Program-made: the position numbers and the translations under genes | In this document: positions 10,752 through 51,334 of the stretch, in pieces | Numbering within the stretch: the stretch's first letter is position 1 | How the letters are laid out: every line of letters begins with the position of its first letter | The notes under the pieces: model-generated | Seen by the model: only the letters and a program-made list of their open reading frames with translations | Told to the model about the DNA's origin: nothing | The model's database searches: none | Assembly (NCBI GenBank): GCA_013289765.1 | Contig: JABCZI010000008.1 | Coordinates: forward strand, 1 to 64,000 | Origin: Acidobacteriota bacterium | Lineage (GTDB): Bacteria > Acidobacteriota > Terriglobia > Terriglobales > Acidobacteriaceae | Reading direction: 5' to 3' | Length of the DNA stretch: 64,000 bases

Positions 10752-12572
10752 TCAAGAAGACATGCGCGCCCGATCTGCATTCCGCAGCAATTCGATTACA
10801 AATGTCGTCCCTCGGCCAGGGTCGCTCTGCACGCGGATTCTTCCCCCATGATCGCTTATTACCGATTGCACAATAGCCAGCCCCAGCCCGGTCCCGTGCT
10901 GCTTGCTCGTGTAATAAGGAGTGAAGATCTGCGCGCATTCGTCCAGCGTCAATCCCTCTCCGGTATCGGCCACTTCGACCATTACGCTGCCGTCTTCATT
11001 TTGCGTGCGCAAGGTCAGGGTTCCGCCGCGTGGCATTGCATCTTGAGCATTAAGCACTAGATTTAAAATCGCACGGTGCAATAGATCCGCGTCGGCCTGT
11101 ACTGGCTCCAGATGTGGATCCAGTTGCAGTTCGCACTTGATCTTCGCCCGACCCGGCGCAGCCAGTTGCGCCTGAAAAAGTTGTATCACTCCAGCTATCA
11201 GTTCATTCATCTGCACCGGCTGGAAACGGGGCTGCGGCATCTTCGAGAATTCGCTGAACCTCTCGATAATTCCCTTTAAATTCGAAATCTCTGCCAACAG
11301 TGTTCTCGAGCTTTCTCGAAATACTTCATCGAAGTCCTCTGAACTCTGCTGGCGCGCCCGGATCAGATTTTCTACCGTAAGCTGAAGGGGAAACAGCGGA
11401 TTTTTCAACTCGTGGGCTAGCCGCCGAGCCAGTTCGCGCCACGCGGCCACCCGTTCCGCCTGGACCAGCCGTTCTTTCTGTCCGAGCAACTCCGTAGTCA
11501 TGCGGTTAAAGGAATCTGCTAACTGACCCAGTTCGTCGGCCCCCAACACATCGACCCGCGTGTTCCAATTTCCCGCGGCAACTTCCTGCGCGGCGTGGGC
11601 CAGCTGTTCGACAGGACGTGTCACTCGCGCTGCTGCCCAGCTGCTTACCAGAATCGCCAGCAGAATCCCCAAGGTTCCCACGATCAGCGCCGCCGACCCG
11701 ATGTGGCGGACCAGTTCCACGTAGTTGCGCCGTGAGTTGCCGATTAACAGAATCGCCAGCAATGGTCGATCCCCGTCCGCTCCCGTGCCCAGCAGCGGAA
11801 TCGCATGAAACACTTCGTCTTCGGCCTCATTTCCCGACCACCGCACCAATCGTGTCGCTTCCTCTTCCGATCTGCGCACCGCATCGACGAGCGGCTGCAA
11901 CTTCTGCGCCGCGGGGAGGTTTTCTCTGCCGGGCGCCGACGGGTCAACCAGGAGCTCTGCTGCGAAGTGATCGCCGCGATTCTGGTAGAGCAAGGCCCGA
12001 GTCCCCACCGGCATATCCAGTGCTGCCAGAAAACTTCGATCCAGACGCCGGCCTCCAACCACATACACCGGTCGTTCCCCTCGCGTTGCAGCCACCGCAA
12101 ACAGGCCCAATTCCGTTCCATCCGGCAACTCTTCCTGCTTGAGAAATGCGCCGTGGTCAGCCGTCGCTGCGAAACTGTCGACGCCAGCCTCCGGATATCC
12201 GAACTTGGCGGGCGCCTGCGCGGACGAAACAATCGTTCCTTTGCTTTCGACAAACTCCAGAAAGTCGAGTTGATTATTTTCCGCGGTAGTTTTTGCTAAC
12301 TCAAAATATGGTCCCGGATCGGCAGATGCTCGATTTAGCGCCGTCGACATGCGTTTTGCGGCTTCCGACGCGGCGATCGCTTCCACTTGCCGCGCCACCA
12401 CCTCGCCTTGACGATTGAACTCGCGCCGGAACTGAGTTACCAGCGCCGCCGTTCTTTCGTTTTCGCTGCGATCGAAAGCACGCCGCGTTACCGCCGTTAC
12501 CAGTCCGGCCACGGCCGCCACCGACAAAAACACCGTCAGCGCAAAGACCGACAGCAGTTTTCGGCGATACAT
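10752..12572 (-). CDS. NtrY-like membrane histidine kinase
   Basis: A 606-residue sensor kinase. Residues 7-27 form a first membrane helix, followed by a periplasmic sensor of about 260 residues, a second helix (SAALIVGTLGILLAILVSSW), then HAMP (ARVTRPVEQLAHAAQEVAAG). The H-box is RRLAHELKNPLFPLQLTVEN with the phosphorylated His, the N-box NLVLNAQDAM, the G1 box VADTGEGLT and the G2 box GTGLGLAIV. AAAGGAG precedes the start. It ends 20 bp before the sigma-54 activator gene, forming a classical two-component pair that feeds sigma-54 promoters. The sensed signal is unknown. Confidence 0.93.
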   Translation of the reverse strand: MYRRKLLSVFALTVFLSVAAVAGLVTAVTRRAFDRSENERTAALVTQFRREFNRQGEVVARQVEAIAASEAAKRMSTALNRASADPGPYFELAKTTAENNQLDFLEFVESKGTIVSSAQAPAKFGYPEAGVDSFAATADHGAFLKQEELPDGTELGLFAVAATRGERPVYVVGGRRLDRSFLAALDMPVGTRALLYQNRGDHFAAELLVDPSAPGRENLPAAQKLQPLVDAVRRSEEEATRLVRWSGNEAEDEVFHAIPLLGTGADGDRPLLAILLIGNSRRNYVELVRHIGSAALIVGTLGILLAILVSSWAAARVTRPVEQLAHAAQEVAAGNWNTRVDVLGADELGQLADSFNRMTTELLGQKERLVQAERVAAWRELARRLAHELKNPLFPLQLTVENLIRARQQSSEDFDEVFRESSRTLLAEISNLKGIIERFSEFSKMPQPRFQPVQMNELIAGVIQLFQAQLAAPGRAKIKCELQLDPHLEPVQADADLLHRAILNLVLNAQDAMPRGGTLTLRTQNEDGSVMVEVADTGEGLTLDECAQIFTPYYTSKQHGTGLGLAIVQSVISDHGGRIRVQSDPGRGTTFVIELLRNADRARMSS

Positions 12573-44717: not shown

Positions 44718-45430
44718 GTTTCCGGACAGCGATGTTGTCGAGGCATAAATAGCTGTAGGTCCTGAGGCTCTCGACCCGACGAGCTTGAGAATTAATACGC
44801 TAGCTCACTAGTTGGAGAAACCCACTCGTAGCCATGGTCAAGCGATACCATCCATTTCGGCGCGGCCTTTGCACCTCTCCTTTCCGATCTGTGGCTCATT
44901 GAGTGCAGCAATGCGACCTTCGATGGTGTGCGCAGTTGCCTGCAGTTCGCCGGCCACACGTGCATAAAACGACAGGTCGCATCGTAGTCATAGAAGCCAC
45001 CGCCAAGAGGCTGAAAGAGCAGCCTGGCCGCATCAAACGCGCGAAGTTTGCAATGAAGAGTGACCTTAGTCTTGAGAGGGTAGGAAGCTTCCGCAGAGTC
45101 TCCGCTCGAGCTCCACATCTGGCCATCGTGACCAAAGCTCGACAGGCAGTGTTCACGGGCCGTCACTGCTTGCCAGTGCGCTGGCGAAACAACGGTGCGC
45201 GTTACACGATGCAGTTCGGTTACTTCCACTTCGCTGGATCGTGTGAGTGGAACCGGACTTGCTGTGAGGTTTAGAGAAACGTCTAGTCAGTTGCGTGCTG
45301 GCAACGCAAAAATCAGAAGTGTTGATGGACCTTGCGGTGATTTTGGCAACTCATGATCTCCACATGGCCTCATGCAGGCACACATGCCGATTTCGGCTCG
45401 ATACATGGACTCATAAAAGGAGATGGAACA
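44718..45430. other. 713-bp stretch without a convincing gene
   Basis: Long frames exist on both strands (44792-45229 minus, 44903-45274 plus), but they overlap each other, show no family likeness and lack good starts. The last 100 bp before 45431 should hold the promoter of the sulfite-oxidase operon. Confidence 0.45.
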
Positions 45431-46135
45431 ATGAAAACGACAAAGGCAGTTAGATTTGGAAACATAGCAATAGCAGCCGTCACCGGTCTTCTGCTGACCC
45501 TACCTGTTCAGGCGGAGATCAAATCGCACTCCGGGAAACTGGTCGTTGAGCAACCCGCGGATCTTCCGGAGATGGCGCGGATCCCGGGGCAGGCTCTCTT
45601 CCTGTGCGGAGCTGAGAATGGCGAGACTTATCTCTACGTTGAGCAGCAAAATGGCGCGCGGCTAGCTATTTTCGATGTCACGGATCCGGCCAAGATCAAG
45701 ACAGCGGCTTCGGTTCAGGTCACGACACCCGGTGCCTACGATTTTGTGCGCTATCTGAACCACAGAACTGAACTGATCCGATTCCGTGAGAGTCAACAGT
45801 TCGCAGTGATTGATCTTCGCGAGCCCAAGAGCCCAACGTTGAAGATCGTGAATGACGATCCCGGCCGTACTGAATCGGTGGGTCGAACGGGCTTGCTGAC
45901 CATCAACGAACCTTACAAGTATGTCACCGGCGAGGCGCACGACTATCGTCTGATGGACGTCGCAAATCCAGAGCATCCCACCCCGCTTGCAACGATCAAG
46001 CAAGTAAGGCACAAGGTCGTCAATGAGGAAACCGGCACGACCTATCTGTTGGGAAGCGATGGTCTCACCGTGGTTCGTCGACCGCGTGTTGAAGAAGACA
46101 ACAAGATAGAAAAAATTTACGAGGAATGGAACTGA
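45431..46135 (+). CDS. exported LVIVD/propeller-like protein
   Basis: ATG 45431 follows AAAAGGAG and opens a 234-residue protein with a signal peptide (MKTTKAVRFGNIAIAAVTGL ending PVQAE). The body has strands such as FLCGAENGETYLYVEQQNGA, LAIFDVTDPAKIKTAASVQV and YRLMDVANPEHPTPLATIK, the pattern of LVIVD-type propeller repeats. It is the gene before the sulfite dehydrogenase genes and may belong with them, but a 163-bp gap and no known link make that open. Confidence 0.72.
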   Translation: MKTTKAVRFGNIAIAAVTGLLLTLPVQAEIKSHSGKLVVEQPADLPEMARIPGQALFLCGAENGETYLYVEQQNGARLAIFDVTDPAKIKTAASVQVTTPGAYDFVRYLNHRTELIRFRESQQFAVIDLREPKSPTLKIVNDDPGRTESVGRTGLLTINEPYKYVTGEAHDYRLMDVANPEHPTPLATIKQVRHKVVNEETGTTYLLGSDGLTVVRRPRVEEDNKIEKIYEEWN

Positions 46136-46298: not shown

Positions 46299-47489
46299 AT
46301 GAACCGGCGCGGATTCTTGCAACTCATAGGCGCTACGGGTGCCGCGGCGTTGACGGCATCCTGCAGTCGAATTAACTCTGTGGCGGGGACCGCACCGGGT
46401 TCTTCTAACCTCATTCGATTCCCGGAAAAAACGGAGATGATCTTCCTTACCGACCGGCCGCCACAGTTGGAGACTCCGATTCACTATTTTCGACAGGACC
46501 TCACTCCCAACGAAGCCTTCTTTGTTCGGTGGCACCTCGAAGGCATTCCGACTTCCGTTGATCTTCGAACATTTCGGCTCAACGTCAGCGGCCATGTCCG
46601 GCAGCCGTTGCAGCTCAGTATGGACGAGCTTCGATCGAAGTTCGATCCCATCTCGATCATCGCGGTCAATCAATGTTCCGGAAATTCGCGTAGCTTTTTC
46701 GAGCCTCGCGTTCCCGGTGGTCAATGGAAGCACGGTGCGGTCGGGAATGCCAAATGGACCGGCGTTTCCATGAAGTCGATTTTGGATCGCGCCCAAGTGA
46801 AGGCAGGCGCCGTGGATGTCTCATTCAATGGGCTTGACGTCCCCCCACTCCCATCTATTGCCGACTTCGTGAAGGCCCTTTCGATCGACCACGCACGCGA
46901 CGGAGAAGTGATGATCGCGTACGCCATGAATGACCAACCCTTGCCCATGGTCAACGGCTTTCCCCTGCGCCTTGTCGTGCCTGGCTGGTACGGAACTTAT
47001 TGGGTAAAAGCTGTGAGCGACATCACCGTGTTACCTCAGCCCTTCAGCAACTTCTGGACGGACAAAGCGTATCGCATTCCCGCTGGTCCAAATGGCACCG
47101 AAAGTCCGAAGGATTTGGCCAAGGACACAATTCCCATTAATCGATTCAACGTGCGTTCCATATTTGTTCGTCCCGAGCCCGATGAAATCTGGCATGCCGG
47201 AATCCCGAATGAAATTGAGGGCGTCGCGTTTGATTCAGGTTACGGGATTCGACGAGTGGAGGTGTCGACCGACGGAGGGAACACCTGGACGGACGCTCGA
47301 CTGGATCCGGAGATCGGAAAGTATTCTTTTCGGCGTTGGCGGGCCTTCTGGACACCAGAAAACCGCGGGCAGTATCGACTCATGGCTCGCGCGACGAATG
47401 CTGTGGGAGACACTCAGAGTAAAGAACAGTGGAACCGCAGCGGTTTTATGTGGAATGTAATCCAGCAAGTTGACGTAAAGGTGGGATAA
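46299..47489 (+). CDS. sulfite-oxidase-type molybdenum enzyme (SorA-like)
   Basis: A 396-residue molybdopterin enzyme. A Tat signal (MNRRGFLQLIGATGAAALTA) with RRGFLQ and a following Cys at 24-25 (SCSR) sends it folded to the periplasm. The Mo-cofactor domain contains IIAVNQCSGNSRSFFEPRV with Cys126 as the Mo ligand, then WKHGAVGNAKWTGVSMKSIL and YAMNDQPLPMVNGFPLRLVV. The C-terminal Mo-co dimerisation domain starts at about residue 290 with GVAFDSGYGIRRVEVSTDGG. It should oxidise sulfite to sulfate or a related substrate. SorB-like cytochrome c follows in 6 bp. Confidence 0.9.
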   Translation: MNRRGFLQLIGATGAAALTASCSRINSVAGTAPGSSNLIRFPEKTEMIFLTDRPPQLETPIHYFRQDLTPNEAFFVRWHLEGIPTSVDLRTFRLNVSGHVRQPLQLSMDELRSKFDPISIIAVNQCSGNSRSFFEPRVPGGQWKHGAVGNAKWTGVSMKSILDRAQVKAGAVDVSFNGLDVPPLPSIADFVKALSIDHARDGEVMIAYAMNDQPLPMVNGFPLRLVVPGWYGTYWVKAVSDITVLPQPFSNFWTDKAYRIPAGPNGTESPKDLAKDTIPINRFNVRSIFVRPEPDEIWHAGIPNEIEGVAFDSGYGIRRVEVSTDGGNTWTDARLDPEIGKYSFRRWRAFWTPENRGQYRLMARATNAVGDTQSKEQWNRSGFMWNVIQQVDVKVG

Positions 47490-47495
47490 ATACCC

Positions 47496-47927
47496 GTGAC
47501 CCCAAAGACGAAAAGTTTGGTTCTCTCAGTGGGGCTTGCGGTGTTGGCTGCCGGTTGCGGACATGCACCAAACGTCTCGCAGCAAGCAGAACATGGCGTC
47601 GTCGACGCAAAGATGGAATCGATGGTCGACTCAAACGCGGACAGCCCGGTTCATACCATCGTGATGTTGCATGACGAGCCGGTGTTTCCGCCGGGACCTG
47701 GGCGTGATGAATTTGTGACCGCATGCGTGGTTTGCCATTCACCTCGATACATCACGATGCAGCCGCAATTTTCGAAGGCTACGTGGCTGAGCGAAGTCAA
47801 AAAAATGAAAGACGTCTACGGTGCGCATATTTCTGACGAGCAGACGCTGACAATTACGGACTACCTGTTTTCTATCAATGGAAAGGCTGGCACTGGTAAG
47901 GCTCCGAAAGGAACTTATGGCGAATAA
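47496..47927 (+). CDS. cytochrome c subunit of the sulfite dehydrogenase (SorB-like)
   Basis: A 143-residue protein opening at GTG 47496. The signal part ends LAAGC, a lipobox, so it is probably a membrane-anchored lipoprotein. A heme site CVVCH is at residues 77-81 (EFVTACVVCHSPRYIT), with a Met-containing stretch further on (MQPQFSKATWLSEVKKM) as possible sixth ligand. The layout matches SorB, which accepts electrons from SorA. The following cytochrome gene overlaps its end by 11 bp. Confidence 0.88.
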   Translation: MTPKTKSLVLSVGLAVLAAGCGHAPNVSQQAEHGVVDAKMESMVDSNADSPVHTIVMLHDEPVFPPGPGRDEFVTACVVCHSPRYITMQPQFSKATWLSEVKKMKDVYGAHISDEQTLTITDYLFSINGKAGTGKAPKGTYGE

Positions 47928-48420
47928 TATCGGAAGCGACCATCAGTCACGGCCACCGATACGGCTCCTGATTTCCGTACTATTGCTCGGCACTCTGCTT
48001 GCCTGGTGGGGAACTCGCGACCATCGCCATCTGTTCGGAGAATCGCCGCGCGGGCCGGTTGCCGCCGCTGGTATGGCTCTTCCGCAGGTCACCCAAGAAG
48101 AAAGTGCGTTGCTCGATCGCGGTTTCCAACTTTCAGAACGCGAATGCGCCGGTTGCCACGAAATGGCAACACGTTCCAGCGCACCCAGTTATCAGGAAAT
48201 TGTGGCCTTCTATCGTCGCGGATTTCCTGCCTCGGCCGGCAATCCGGATTTGCGCTCTCGACTTGCCTCGGCCGTAACCCATCCCCAGCCGGGATGGGGC
48301 AACTTCGAACCGGGTCCCCCGGAGTCCGGGCTGTCGCTGAATGACCGGATCGCCCTTGCGAGTTGGATTCTGAACCGTTCCGATCAAAACAAGAATGCTG
48401 GCCAAGGTGTGGGTCAATGA
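47917..48420 (+). CDS. membrane-anchored cytochrome c
   Basis: ATG at 47917 has AAAGGAAC upstream and overlaps the SorB stop by 11 bp. 167 residues with an N-terminal hydrophobic segment (IRLLISVLLLGTLLAWWG), then a heme site CAGCH (FQLSERECAGCHEMATRSSA, Cys77). It looks like a single-heme mobile or membrane-tethered cytochrome that could pass electrons from SorB to the terminal oxidase encoded next. The stop overlaps the oxidase start (ATGA). Confidence 0.87.
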   Translation: MANNIGSDHQSRPPIRLLISVLLLGTLLAWWGTRDHRHLFGESPRGPVAAAGMALPQVTQEESALLDRGFQLSERECAGCHEMATRSSAPSYQEIVAFYRRGFPASAGNPDLRSRLASAVTHPQPGWGNFEPGPPESGLSLNDRIALASWILNRSDQNKNAGQGVGQ

Positions 48421-51152
48421 CAACTTTCGCACAAAATTTATCCGGTCAAGATGAGCGGCAAAATCGTCCGAGTTCAGGTGCGCTTCCATCGATTGAATAC
48501 GATCTGATCCGCGCCCACGTCTTTGCGTCACTCGTCACCTTAGTGATCTCGGTCCTATTCGGCATTACGGTGGCCACAAAGTTCAGCTTTCCAGAATTTC
48601 TGGGTAGCCACGCATGGCTTACCTGGGGAAGGCTTCGCTACAACCATACGCAAGGCATATTTTTCGGATGGCTGGGCAACGCGTTCCTGGCATTCTTTTA
48701 TTATGCTGTGCCGCGCCTCGCAAATCGGCCGGTTTTGAGCCGCAAGCTCGGATGGTTTCTCTTCTGGATCTGGAATTTTGCGGTAGTTCTTTCCGGATGG
48801 ACGCTGGTAGCTGCCGGTTTCAGCCAGCCTCTGGAGTGGGCGGAGTTTCCGCTCGTCGTCGCTGCATTCGTCGTCCTTGCCTTTATCCTGATGGTCTTCG
48901 AGTTCGTTCTGCCATTTTTAAGAGCTCGGCTCTCTGACCTGTATGTCAGCGGCTGGTACATTATCGGCGGCATTATCTTCACGATGCTGGCGTACCCGGT
49001 GGGAAACGTCGTACCTAACGTTGTTCCCGGTGCGCGGGGCGCAGCCTTCAGCGGTCTCTGGATTCACGACGCAGTAGGCCTCTTCGTTACGCCTTTTGCT
49101 CTCGCCATCGCCTACTACGTAATTCCCGCCACCACGCGGCGCCCCATCTTCAGTCATTTTCTGTCGATGGTGGGATTCTGGGTGCTCTTCTTTACTTATC
49201 CATTGAATGGAACCCATCATTACGTTTATTCGGCAATCCCCATGACCGCGCAGAAAGGCGCCATCGTTGCCTCTGTTTATCTCGGCATGGACGTGATTTT
49301 AGTCGTCGCCAATCTGCTGCTTTCTCTGCGCGGAAGCAGTGGACTCGCTTCGCGGGACGTGCCGCTGCGTTTCGTCTGGTTTGGGGTTGTCTCCTATCTG
49401 GTCGTGAGCTTGCAGGGCTCGGTACAGGCGCTGATGCCAGTCAATCGTTTCATTCATTTTACGGATTGGGTCATCGGCCACTCACACCTGGCAATGATCG
49501 GTTTCGCAAGCTTTATCGCGCTCGGCGGGATCGCCCATATGTGGCAACGCATCCCCGGAACTCGCTACAACGAGCGCATGATGAATTGGTCGTTCTGGCT
49601 GATTGCCATAGGCCTGACCCTGATGGTCACCGACCTCACGATTGCGGGACTGGTGGAGGCTCAGGTCTGGGAATCGAGCGCTCCGTGGATCGATTCTGTG
49701 CGTGCGGTCGGAAGCTACTGGCTGGTGCGCACACTCTCGGGACTTCCTATTCTCGCGGGTTTTGCTCTTTTCTGGACTGCTCTCGTTACCGGACCAAGGT
49801 CAGAGACGGTCACGTCCGCGGTCAGACCCGTGGCCGCAGAAGAGATCGTTGCATTCGAGAATGGCGCGACGGCGTCACAAGAGTTCAGTTGGACGGGCTG
49901 GCTCAGCCATGCGTATGTGGTCGCCTTCGGCGCCGGTGTAGGCTTCTTCGCTCTGTCGTTTCTGGTTCTTGCGATTATTCCCGGAAAAGAACTGGAAAAT
50001 GAAATCAAGCGGGTGGCTCCAGTCACCATGGCAACGATCACCGCCTCCGAACAAAGGGGCCGAGTTATCTATGGACGCGAAGGTTGCGCTTACTGTCATA
50101 CGGAGCAGGTCCGGTCTCTCGCGACAGATGTGCGGCGTTTTGGAGCGCCGACCGAACCGTGGGAAACCAAATATGATTACCCGCAGCTTTGGGGCACTCG
50201 CCGCATCGGGCCGGATCTATCCCGCGAATTCAACCTTCGTCCCCCCGACTGGCAACTCACTCATCTCTTCAATCCCCGGCTTGTGGTGCGGGATTCCGTA
50301 ATGCCTCCGTATCCGTGGCTTTTTAGTGGCAGCCCGAATCAGCCCACGCAAGAAGGCTTGGATGTGCTGGCCTATCTCCAATCGCTTGGACGAGCGCGCC
50401 AACTTTCCGGTTTTGACCGGCAGACGCTGACGGTAAGTGTCCAGTCTGAGACACCGAACATGGCGATGCCGGGCGAGCCCTCAGCCAGAGCCACTCCTCC
50501 AGTGGTTCCAATTGCCATGACGGGAGGATACAGCGTAAGCGCACCCGTTCTGCACCCTGCATCGGATCCGGACGACTTACAAGAAGAAGTGAGCCGCGGC
50601 GCAACCGTTTTTGCCGCCAATTGTGCTTCGTGTCATGGACCCGCCGGAAAGGGCGATGGCAAAGCTTCTGCGAGTCTATCGCCGAAGCCGGCAAACCTGA
50701 CTGCAGCCCGATTTTCCGACGAACGATTGAGTAGCGTGCTGTGGAATGGAATCGCAGGATCTGCCATGCCGCCGTGGCGCCAGTTGCCCACCGAAGATCT
50801 ACGCGCGCTGGTTGCTTACGTCGATAGGCTGCACGTTCCGGGTGCTGCGTCGTCGACACAAGATGTGACGAGTCTGAACGTGGGCAAATCCCTCTTTGCG
50901 GCGAACTGCGCCAGCTGTCACGGCGACACAGGAGCGGGCAATGGATCGGCAGCAGGCGCCCTCAGTCCTGCACCAACCAACTTTCATCTTAAGAAGCCCA
51001 CACAAGAACGGGCCTGGGATGTTTTGGAAAATGGCGTACCGGGAACAGCGATGCCACCTTGGCAGAGCCAACTCAACCCAGACGAACGGCACGCCTTGGT
51101 CGCATTCGTGCGCTCTCTATATAGTCCAGCGCAGGCGAACTCCACACAATGA
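48417..51152 (+). CDS. fused cbb3-type oxidase: CcoN, CcoO and two tandem cytochrome c domains
   Basis: A 911-residue single chain. Residues 25-480 are CcoN with about 12 membrane helices. Heme and copper ligands: His in GRLRYNHTQGIFFG, CuB His in WIHDAVGLF, HH in TYPLNGTHHYVYS (Tyr six residues before HH, as in cbb3 enzymes with the His-Tyr cross-link), and two His in VIGHSHLAMIG. After a helix (VAFGAGVGFFALSFLVLAI) comes CcoO with CAYCH at 557 in GCAYCHTEQVRS and WGTRRIGPDLSREF. Then two CcoP-like cytochromes with CASCH at 736 and 831. Usually N, O and P are three proteins. No CcoP membrane anchor is present. The small gene at 51149 follows by 4-bp overlap. Confidence 0.9.
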   Translation: MTTFAQNLSGQDERQNRPSSGALPSIEYDLIRAHVFASLVTLVISVLFGITVATKFSFPEFLGSHAWLTWGRLRYNHTQGIFFGWLGNAFLAFFYYAVPRLANRPVLSRKLGWFLFWIWNFAVVLSGWTLVAAGFSQPLEWAEFPLVVAAFVVLAFILMVFEFVLPFLRARLSDLYVSGWYIIGGIIFTMLAYPVGNVVPNVVPGARGAAFSGLWIHDAVGLFVTPFALAIAYYVIPATTRRPIFSHFLSMVGFWVLFFTYPLNGTHHYVYSAIPMTAQKGAIVASVYLGMDVILVVANLLLSLRGSSGLASRDVPLRFVWFGVVSYLVVSLQGSVQALMPVNRFIHFTDWVIGHSHLAMIGFASFIALGGIAHMWQRIPGTRYNERMMNWSFWLIAIGLTLMVTDLTIAGLVEAQVWESSAPWIDSVRAVGSYWLVRTLSGLPILAGFALFWTALVTGPRSETVTSAVRPVAAEEIVAFENGATASQEFSWTGWLSHAYVVAFGAGVGFFALSFLVLAIIPGKELENEIKRVAPVTMATITASEQRGRVIYGREGCAYCHTEQVRSLATDVRRFGAPTEPWETKYDYPQLWGTRRIGPDLSREFNLRPPDWQLTHLFNPRLVVRDSVMPPYPWLFSGSPNQPTQEGLDVLAYLQSLGRARQLSGFDRQTLTVSVQSETPNMAMPGEPSARATPPVVPIAMTGGYSVSAPVLHPASDPDDLQEEVSRGATVFAANCASCHGPAGKGDGKASASLSPKPANLTAARFSDERLSSVLWNGIAGSAMPPWRQLPTEDLRALVAYVDRLHVPGAASSTQDVTSLNVGKSLFAANCASCHGDTGAGNGSAAGALSPAPTNFHLKKPTQERAWDVLENGVPGTAMPPWQSQLNPDERHALVAFVRSLYSPAQANSTQ

Positions 51153-51334
51153 TAGATCTAATTGTGATCGTAATCTCAGCCATTATGTTCGCCCTGCTTC
51201 TGGTCTGGTGGCGATGGCCAGCGTTCAGCGCCTGGATTGAAGCGCCGAAATACTCAATGCTGCGCCAGGAGCGCCGCTTTGATCAACGGGACAGAATCGG
51301 AAATGAACCAGTCGTCGATGGCGGACACGAATAG
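51149..51334 (+). CDS. small one-helix protein linked to the fused oxidase
   Basis: ATG 51149 overlaps the oxidase stop by 4 bp. 61 residues: MIDLIVIVISAIMFALLLVW is a transmembrane helix, followed by WRWPAFSAWIEAPKYSMLRQ and a charged tail ending DGGHE. By position it resembles the small CcoQ/CcoS-type accessory proteins of cbb3 operons, but the sequence is not clearly one of them. Confidence 0.7.
   Translation: MIDLIVIVISAIMFALLLVWWRWPAFSAWIEAPKYSMLRQERRFDQRDRIGNEPVVDGGHE

Follow-up and report, generated by a model that had tools for sequence, protein, structure and literature searches.

The window analysed here is a stretch of 64,000 nucleotides from contig JABCZI010000008.1 of an Acidobacteriota bacterium (assembly GCA_013289765.1). 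It encodes an oxidase in which regions resembling the CcoN, CcoO and CcoP subunits of cbb3 oxidases (N, O and P) are joined in a single chain, directly downstream of genes for a SorAB-like sulfite dehydrogenase and a cytochrome c. We consider it likely that this chain represents a divergent subfamily of the C-type (cbb3) haem-copper oxygen reductases, dedicated to electrons released by sulfur oxidation in the periplasm. As read from sequence, the subfamily combines the fusion with invariant metal ligands, a predicted CcoN fold, a characteristic gene order, pairing with either SorAB or TsdA, a small partner protein, and genomes in which CcoG and CcoS were not found.

The oxidase gene (48417–51152; all genes described are on the forward strand) is a frame of 911 codons that extends from an ATG at 48417 to a TGA at 51150–51152 with no internal stop. 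Pfam places COX1 at residues 31–442, FixO at 517–639 and cytochrome c domains at 724–802 and 823–901, and a motif scan locates CAYCH at residue 557 (50085–50099) and CASCH at residues 736 (50622–50636) and 831 (50907–50921). The original prediction of one stop-free frame holding CcoN, CcoO and two cytochrome c domains thus had its coordinates exactly right, and both Pfam and the motifs agree with it.

The sulfite operon, which the original prediction overlooked, is the most informative part of this locus. Its first gene (46299–47489) encodes a SorA-like molybdenum sulfite dehydrogenase catalytic subunit with a twin-arginine translocation (TAT) signal, which matches Pfam Oxidored_molyb and Mo-co_dimer, NCBIfam SorA and, in the PDB, 2blf_A (E 1.8e-122). 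Present are VRWHL (VRYHL in 2blf_A) and NQCSGNSR, which we take to be the molybdenum-binding Cys motif of SorA. The second gene (47496–47927) encodes a SorB-like mono-haem cytochrome c (NCBIfam SorB; 2blf_B, E 3.7e-7). Both subunits therefore match 2blf, presumably the sulfite:cytochrome c oxidoreductase of Starkeya novella, but in the window they are continued by genes for a cytochrome c and the oxidase. That mono-haem cytochrome (47878–48420; Pfam Cytochrom_C 20.2 bits, cut-off 21.3; blastp relatives in 12 loci) has an N-terminal hydrophobic stretch and, judged by eye from its sequence, is probably membrane-anchored. The order is SorA-SorB-cytochrome-oxidase followed by a gene for a 61-residue protein, with ATGA overlaps at both ends of the oxidase gene: the cytochrome stop with the oxidase start, and the oxidase stop with the ATG of the small gene.

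Pairing with sulfite and thiosulfate dehydrogenases

Relatives were collected by a contig scan seeded with motifs of three fused proteins, which yielded 66 loci, and neighbour proteins were then searched by tblastn (threshold 1e-15) over these loci and the window, 67 places in all. SorAB was found at 17 places, TsdA at 40, both together at none and neither at ten (L094, without a match, being counted among them). All ten end at a contig edge: L041 begins inside SorA; L035 has flanks of just 413 and 783 bases; a TetH-like gene, in other loci a companion of TsdA, is present in L036, L063 and L064; and L060, L065, L079, L088 and L094 stop within or just past the oxidase. TsdA (4wqc, 5lo9) is thus the partner in sister loci, outside the window operon; its identity is secure in the case of the Acidipila protein (locus L097), which matches 4wqc_A at E 2e-47. 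Pairing holds across Acidobacteria, Melainabacteria/Cyanobacteria, Pseudomonas, Paraburkholderia and acetic acid bacteria, and also on plasmids. Because relatives adjoin genes for sulfite or thiosulfate oxidation, the oxidase is likely to be a direct route by which electrons of sulfur compounds reach oxygen.

The oxidase might instead belong to a regulon shared with sulfur genes and have no specificity for them, as would agree with a fold and ligands that are those of cbb3 oxidases and with a P part resembling both CcoP and a bc1-linked dihaem subunit. This is unlikely, since 57 of the 67 places are paired and the other ten are cut, and since a pool oxidase is not expected alongside two unrelated sulfur dehydrogenases across phyla. 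Whole-genome searches outside the first set added nine further loci, one with SorAB and eight with TsdA, so that pairing was found in 9/9 (L151, identical to L059, was dropped, and the G060 locus had supplied a scan seed protein). Other cbb3 loci paired in 0/34; in this control 20 of the 34 had partial TsdA matches of 24–33% identity (best E 5.85e-7, none attaining 1e-15), read as generic cytochrome c, the flanks were 2–2.5 kb at seven loci, five stretches measured 7–7.6 kb and one 6.4 kb, and L129 had no O match.

A second alternative, which we likewise hold to be improbable, differs in purpose and not in wiring: the operon would be a sulfite-disposal unit that removes toxic sulfite and dumps its electrons on oxygen with little energy gain. 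The family is patchy (of 396 genomes sampled across the phylum, 11 have it), and the part of the Nitrospina gracilis report available to us states that sulfite oxidation in eukaryotes serves detoxification (PMC3578206). However, the thiosulfate branch, which accounts for 40 of the 67 places, is harder to read as detoxification, and the catalytic core is fully kept.

Several other genes recur in these neighbourhoods. Sulfate/thiosulfate-type binding proteins occur at 27 places and DsrE proteins at 14. Relatives of the protein encoded at L097:11749–12468 lie near Tsd-type oxidases at 31 of the 67 places; it scores 96.3 bits against the NCBIfam thiosulfate dehydrogenase model NF052225 (cut-off 300) and matched no Pfam family at 0.01. 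An extra dihaem cytochrome is present in the Tsd loci of Paraburkholderia and acetic acid bacteria; none recurs in the acidobacterial gene maps, in which TsdB was not specifically searched for. On two annotated plasmids the oxidase is flanked by sulfate-type or other substrate-binding proteins (L135:8555–10360, L136:3416–4420 and 11037–11828), and no ATP-binding cassette (ABC) permease is annotated in the stretches shown. Upstream of the window operon, a 260-residue beta-propeller-like protein (45353–46135; weak Pfam Beta_propel match, E 0.014) is a possible further member with no confident family; blastp found relatives in 6 loci, one of them with two stretches.

Architecture and distribution of the oxidase

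The CcoN-like core comprises residues 28–457 (48498–49787; COX1 E 2.1e-66). In an AlphaFold model of the whole chain (mean predicted local distance difference test score, pLDDT, 69.9; predicted template modelling score, pTM, 0.70), twelve long helices are predicted within this part and one more at 492–533. Foldseek ranked solved CcoN chains first (9g6b_A, 9.8e-17), and VIA gave Z 40.9 and a root-mean-square deviation of 2.5 over 440 residues against 8smr_E. The haem b, b3 and CuB ligands are all in place, in agreement with the His ligands and Tyr noted in the original prediction: H77, H217, Y261, H267, H268, H355 and H357 are invariant in alignments of 51 family CcoN and of 39 fused proteins, the motif used to gather the 51 having missed Melainabacteria and some others. 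Y261, presumably the catalytic Tyr of cbb3 oxidases, stands six residues before H267 in all 51, a spacing also seen in the CcoN of Pseudomonas spelaei.

These features make a nitric oxide reductase, or an enzyme catalysing some other reaction at the b3 site, very unlikely. It is true that, after the cbb3 chains, the closest fold is that of the nitric oxide reductase cNOR (Z 37.8 against 4xyd_A) and that Gln333 occupies a position at which Glu is found in three of the eight other CcoN rows compared, a set that includes one misread frame; against this, the Tyr six residues before the His pair is kept in 51 of 51 family CcoN, CcoO is present, and cbb3 chains come first by sequence as well as by fold. 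Gln333 is not diagnostic because four of the same eight rows also have Gln. The Glu-to-Gln exchange was rejected as a mark of the family on the same count, Gln being present in 48 of the 51 family CcoN.

The CcoO-like part (residues 492–662; 49890–50402) has one membrane helix and one c haem, matches FixO above its cut-off (E 1.1e-34) and 8smr_F at 1.3e-24, and in Foldseek retrieved 8smr_F, 6xkw_o and 3mk7_B at 30–32% identity. In both predicted models it is poorly modelled in the absence of haem and is followed by a disordered linker; pLDDT falls below 50 at residues 667–707 in the whole model and at 665–703 (50409–50525) in a second model of residues 481–911 alone (mean pLDDT 75.8), in which the tandem cytochromes are well predicted. 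The disordered linker and the poorly modelled O led us to set aside a docking of the tandem cytochromes onto the O domain. These cytochromes form the P-like part (residues 724–901; 50586–51119; Pfam Cytochrome_CBB3 and Cytochrom_C). Among PDB chains, the C-terminal part matched 6h5l_B at E 5.7e-15 and the CcoP chain 3mk7_C at 5.8e-11, the latter match spanning both domains. An assignment of P as TsdB was discarded, as 5lo9 reached only 2.6e-5 and was outranked by 6h5l_B, by CcoP and by the dihaem subunit linked to bc1. Met 629, 784 and 879 are likely the axial ligands of the three c haems. P keeps both haems of CcoP and lacks its N-terminal membrane anchor, and in none of the 59 family proteins with three haem motifs does a transmembrane-like hydrophobic segment lie beyond the first c haem. 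The P part had been called unusual on two grounds, of which the missing anchor is borne out; the other, a pair of tandem cytochromes, is what CcoP normally contains.

The window chain therefore shares with classical CcoNOQP (3mk7, 8smr, 9g6b) the core fold, the haem and CuB ligands, the Tyr six residues before the His pair, the CcoO haem domain and a dihaem P, and differs in being one chain, in the absence of a P anchor, in its adjoining sulfur dehydrogenase and in low family scores. NCBIfam gave 207.5 bits for ccoN (cut-off 583), 98.1 for ccoO (201) and 68.2 for ccoP (180), all below the cut-offs, which points to a divergent subfamily; the ccoN cut-off is also missed by classical acidobacterial CcoN. 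PRK14485 and PRK14486, which describe N-O and O-c fusions, also represent joined subunits, but neither spans N and O along with both P haems, and the window protein scores far below both (325.8 and 161 bits; cut-offs 1080 and 447).

Fusion alone is not new, as Nitrospina gracilis has a published cbb3 oxidase with N, O and P in one 954-residue chain and haem c sites arranged as one plus two (PMC3578206, consulted in part). The three-part fusion proposed for the window thus stands as an observation and falls as a novelty. Both oxidases are one-gene N-O-P chains with the same complement of haem c sites. The published description of the Nitrospina enzyme places His202, Gly203 and Tyr208 (Pseudomonas stutzeri numbering) near a CuB ligand, where the window protein has S212, G213 and D218, a difference at two of three positions in a register assumed to be ungapped, although phmmer sets one gap there; all three window residues are invariant in the 39 fused proteins. 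The Nitrospina genome also encodes a sulfite:cytochrome c oxidoreductase, and adjacency to the oxidase is not among the facts found in the part of the report available to us (PMC3578206).

Among the 66 scan loci, 39 have N-O-P in one frame, 21 have N apart from a fused O-P, and six could not be judged, five because of contig ends (L067, L088, L090, L094, L096) and L068 because of a broken frame; L065 and L079 were counted as judged though P is partly cut. O and P share a frame in 60/60 judged loci, including those of Edaphobacter aggregans DSM 19364 and Acidipila rosea DSM 103428. An artefact of assembly or read-through uniting separate genes, for which nothing speaks except that N is separate in the 21 loci, can be dismissed with near certainty: the window fusion is no assembly error because the three-part chain recurs at related loci in many assemblies, including those of isolates, and in G060, a genome assembled as one contig. 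Neither a stop between O and P in most relatives nor an assembly fault, the two findings named in advance as fatal to the fusion, was encountered, with the broken L068 frame as the exception.

Fused forms occur in Acidobacteria, including some Bryobacterales, and in Melainabacteria/Obscuribacterales; split forms occur in other Bryobacterales and Terriglobia, P. spelaei, Paraburkholderia, Acetobacter and Komagataeibacter. In a quick tree, used for grouping only and with one outgroup row (out_L123_0, branch 10) being a misread frame, the fused forms make up a Melainabacteria clade and one Acidobacteria clade, and the split forms comprise Proteobacteria and one Bryobacterales/Terriglobia clade, which implies at least two fusions or splits. 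In the sample of 396 genomes, 29 matched at 1e-100; the 11 with the window oxidase family (five fused, six with N apart) show at least 51% identity to the window protein and the other 18 show 35–41%. In a search of 121 genomes, 17 matched at 1e-20 and five carry the family. Among 362 plasmid records with a match, 7 have one that covers at least 80% of the query, including the 26-kb mobilizable plasmid pGX3 of Komagataeibacter xylinus.

Individual loci give further detail. A 7.65-kb cassette of TsdA and split oxidase is shared at 99.7–99.9% nucleotide identity by L082, L083, L099 and L135 (Acetobacter sicerae, K. xylinus and Acetobacter estunensis), and the K. xylinus copy matches pGX3. E. aggregans DSM 19364 (NZ_JQKI01000035.1) carries a Tsd-type (L048) and a Sor-type (L092) one-chain oxidase about 29 kb apart on a single scaffold. 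At L007/L068 in G035, a genome of the window's genus, the order SorA-SorB-cytochrome-oxidase-small protein is kept, but two internal gaps interrupt the oxidase frame, with O and P falling in different frames; as G035 is a draft of 1090 contigs, this may be decay or a fault of assembly.

A small partner and missing assembly factors

The gene after the oxidase (51149–51334) encodes a 61-residue one-helix protein of a W..SP..R..E.PKY family, conserved downstream of the oxidase and a candidate small subunit. Of 58 loci, 57 have a frame of 35–90 residues that contains E.PK or E.PN and begins no more than 70 bases from the oxidase stop, and at 45 of these the overlap is exactly ATGA; L085 has no partner and three more loci are cut. 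Control genes of the same loci gave 2 such frames in 632, the motif having been drawn from those loci. Partners across the family are 44–73 residues long, and E31 and P33 are invariant in 50 sequences. The window protein matched nothing in Pfam or NCBIfam at 0.1. Comparison with CcoQ/FixQ gave a FixQ match in 3 of 50 (best E 0.0022) and an hhalign probability of 33.7% against seven CcoQ, so that a relation to CcoQ is no more than possible, and on K. xylinus and Paraburkholderia fungorum plasmids the protein following the oxidase is annotated as hypothetical. It probably serves as a small subunit with a part in structure or assembly. Its near-constant presence makes it doubtful that the enzyme works with few or no other subunits, as had been supposed; SorA, SorB and a cytochrome c also lie directly upstream.

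The genome from which the window comes (97.6% complete; 4.80 Mb in 18 contigs) yielded no second cbb3 gene, and its remaining haem-copper matches are weak. Assembly factors were searched for in 50 genomes, those of 50 of the 66 scan loci, which represent at most 63 genomes. In 42 there is no other CcoN at 1e-20, and eight have one: P. spelaei, acidobacterium G134 and six Melainabacteria. CcoG was detected at 1e-10 in two genomes, both among these eight, and CcoS at 0.01 in exactly the eight, seven of them over the cut-off. Thus neither factor was found at these thresholds in any of the 42 genomes whose sole CcoN is the window-family oxidase, which distinguishes the family from classical cbb3 oxidases. 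Neither was found in five close genomes carrying the window oxidase family, if one disregards a CcoG hit in G098 that spans 16 residues (E 0.008); two of seven close genomes, G007 and G042, which have classical cbb3, gave a CcoG match at E ~1e-36, below the curated cut-off, and a weak CcoS match. Single absences mean little, given many draft genomes and the shortness of CcoS, and the evidence lies in the pattern. In Campylobacter, activity is reported to have all but disappeared when CcoS was lost, an effect that copper rescued, and to have dropped to about half when CcoG was lost (PMC8267372).

CcoH/FixH was considered as a possible third absent factor and set aside: matches occur in 20 of the 50 genomes, 13 over the cut-off, but only that of P. 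spelaei is full length and most others lie inside long frames. In Melainabacteria G124–G128 and G130 the second CcoN (269–282 bits) has a CcoS match close by on the same contig, and no CcoG was found there at 1e-10.

A model for sulfur-dependent oxygen reduction

The data presented above have led us to propose a model whereby SorA oxidises sulfite, and SorB and the anchored cytochrome c relay the electrons to the tethered tandem cytochromes of P. From P they would pass to the CcoO haem, to haem b and to the b3-CuB site, where oxygen would be reduced; direct electron transfer, this order of carriers, oxygen reduction and any proton pumping are our inference. The flexible linker would replace the membrane anchor, and donor enzyme and oxidase would form a pair without the bc1 complex. 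Relatives would couple the same oxidase to TsdA, with thiosulfate in place of sulfite, and in the acidobacterial loci of this branch P may serve as the acceptor. SorAB and TsdA both release electrons at the level of cytochrome c, past the bc1 complex, and an oxidase with its own tethered cytochromes fits such donors.

Several observations weigh against this model. Gene neighbourhood is no proof of electron flow. The NCBIfam scores of the window donor proteins are below their cut-offs (SorA 511.6 bits against 600; SorB 68.2 against 93). Seeding by motifs of three fused proteins leaves distant fused oxidases unsampled, and the loci are not all independent: three acetic acid bacteria share one cassette, and three genomes yield two loci each. 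The Sor/Tsd split is perhaps not absolute, because four Tsd loci (L069, L073, L076, L078) have weak SorA-like matches (26–30% identity, E 3e-8 to 2e-35) without SorB, and because L036, whose oxidase is close kin of the window protein and whose upstream side is missing, has a TetH-like gene downstream. Finally, the broken frame of L068 may mean that the enzyme is dispensable or that the G035 assembly is wrong.

A broader proposal, to which we give about even weight, is that these genes form a self-contained sulfur-respiration module in which electrons from SorAB or TsdA reach the oxidase through tethered cytochromes and bypass the bc1 complex, CuB is installed without CcoG and CcoS, and an undescribed small membrane subunit takes part; the module would have spread across phyla partly on plasmids, swapping its donor and fusing or splitting on the way. 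In the open-licence literature, searched mostly at the level of listings, no paper was found in which a cbb3 oxidase, fused throughout or in O-P, is connected with SorAB or TsdA genes next to it. Within the reach of these searches, four features are new: the constant pairing, the small partner protein, the absence of CcoG and CcoS, and the occurrence in several phyla and on plasmids.

If the model is correct, Acidobacteria, non-photosynthetic Cyanobacteria and acetic acid bacteria would possess a compact pathway, predictable from sequence, that links sulfite or thiosulfate to oxygen. The pairing helps to name genes, such as those for the plasmid proteins called hypothetical after the oxidase. 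A single chain that would carry five haems is convenient for structural and electron-transfer work, and genomes that have only the window-type oxidase and no detected CcoG or CcoS make testable which factors are needed to build the CuB site.

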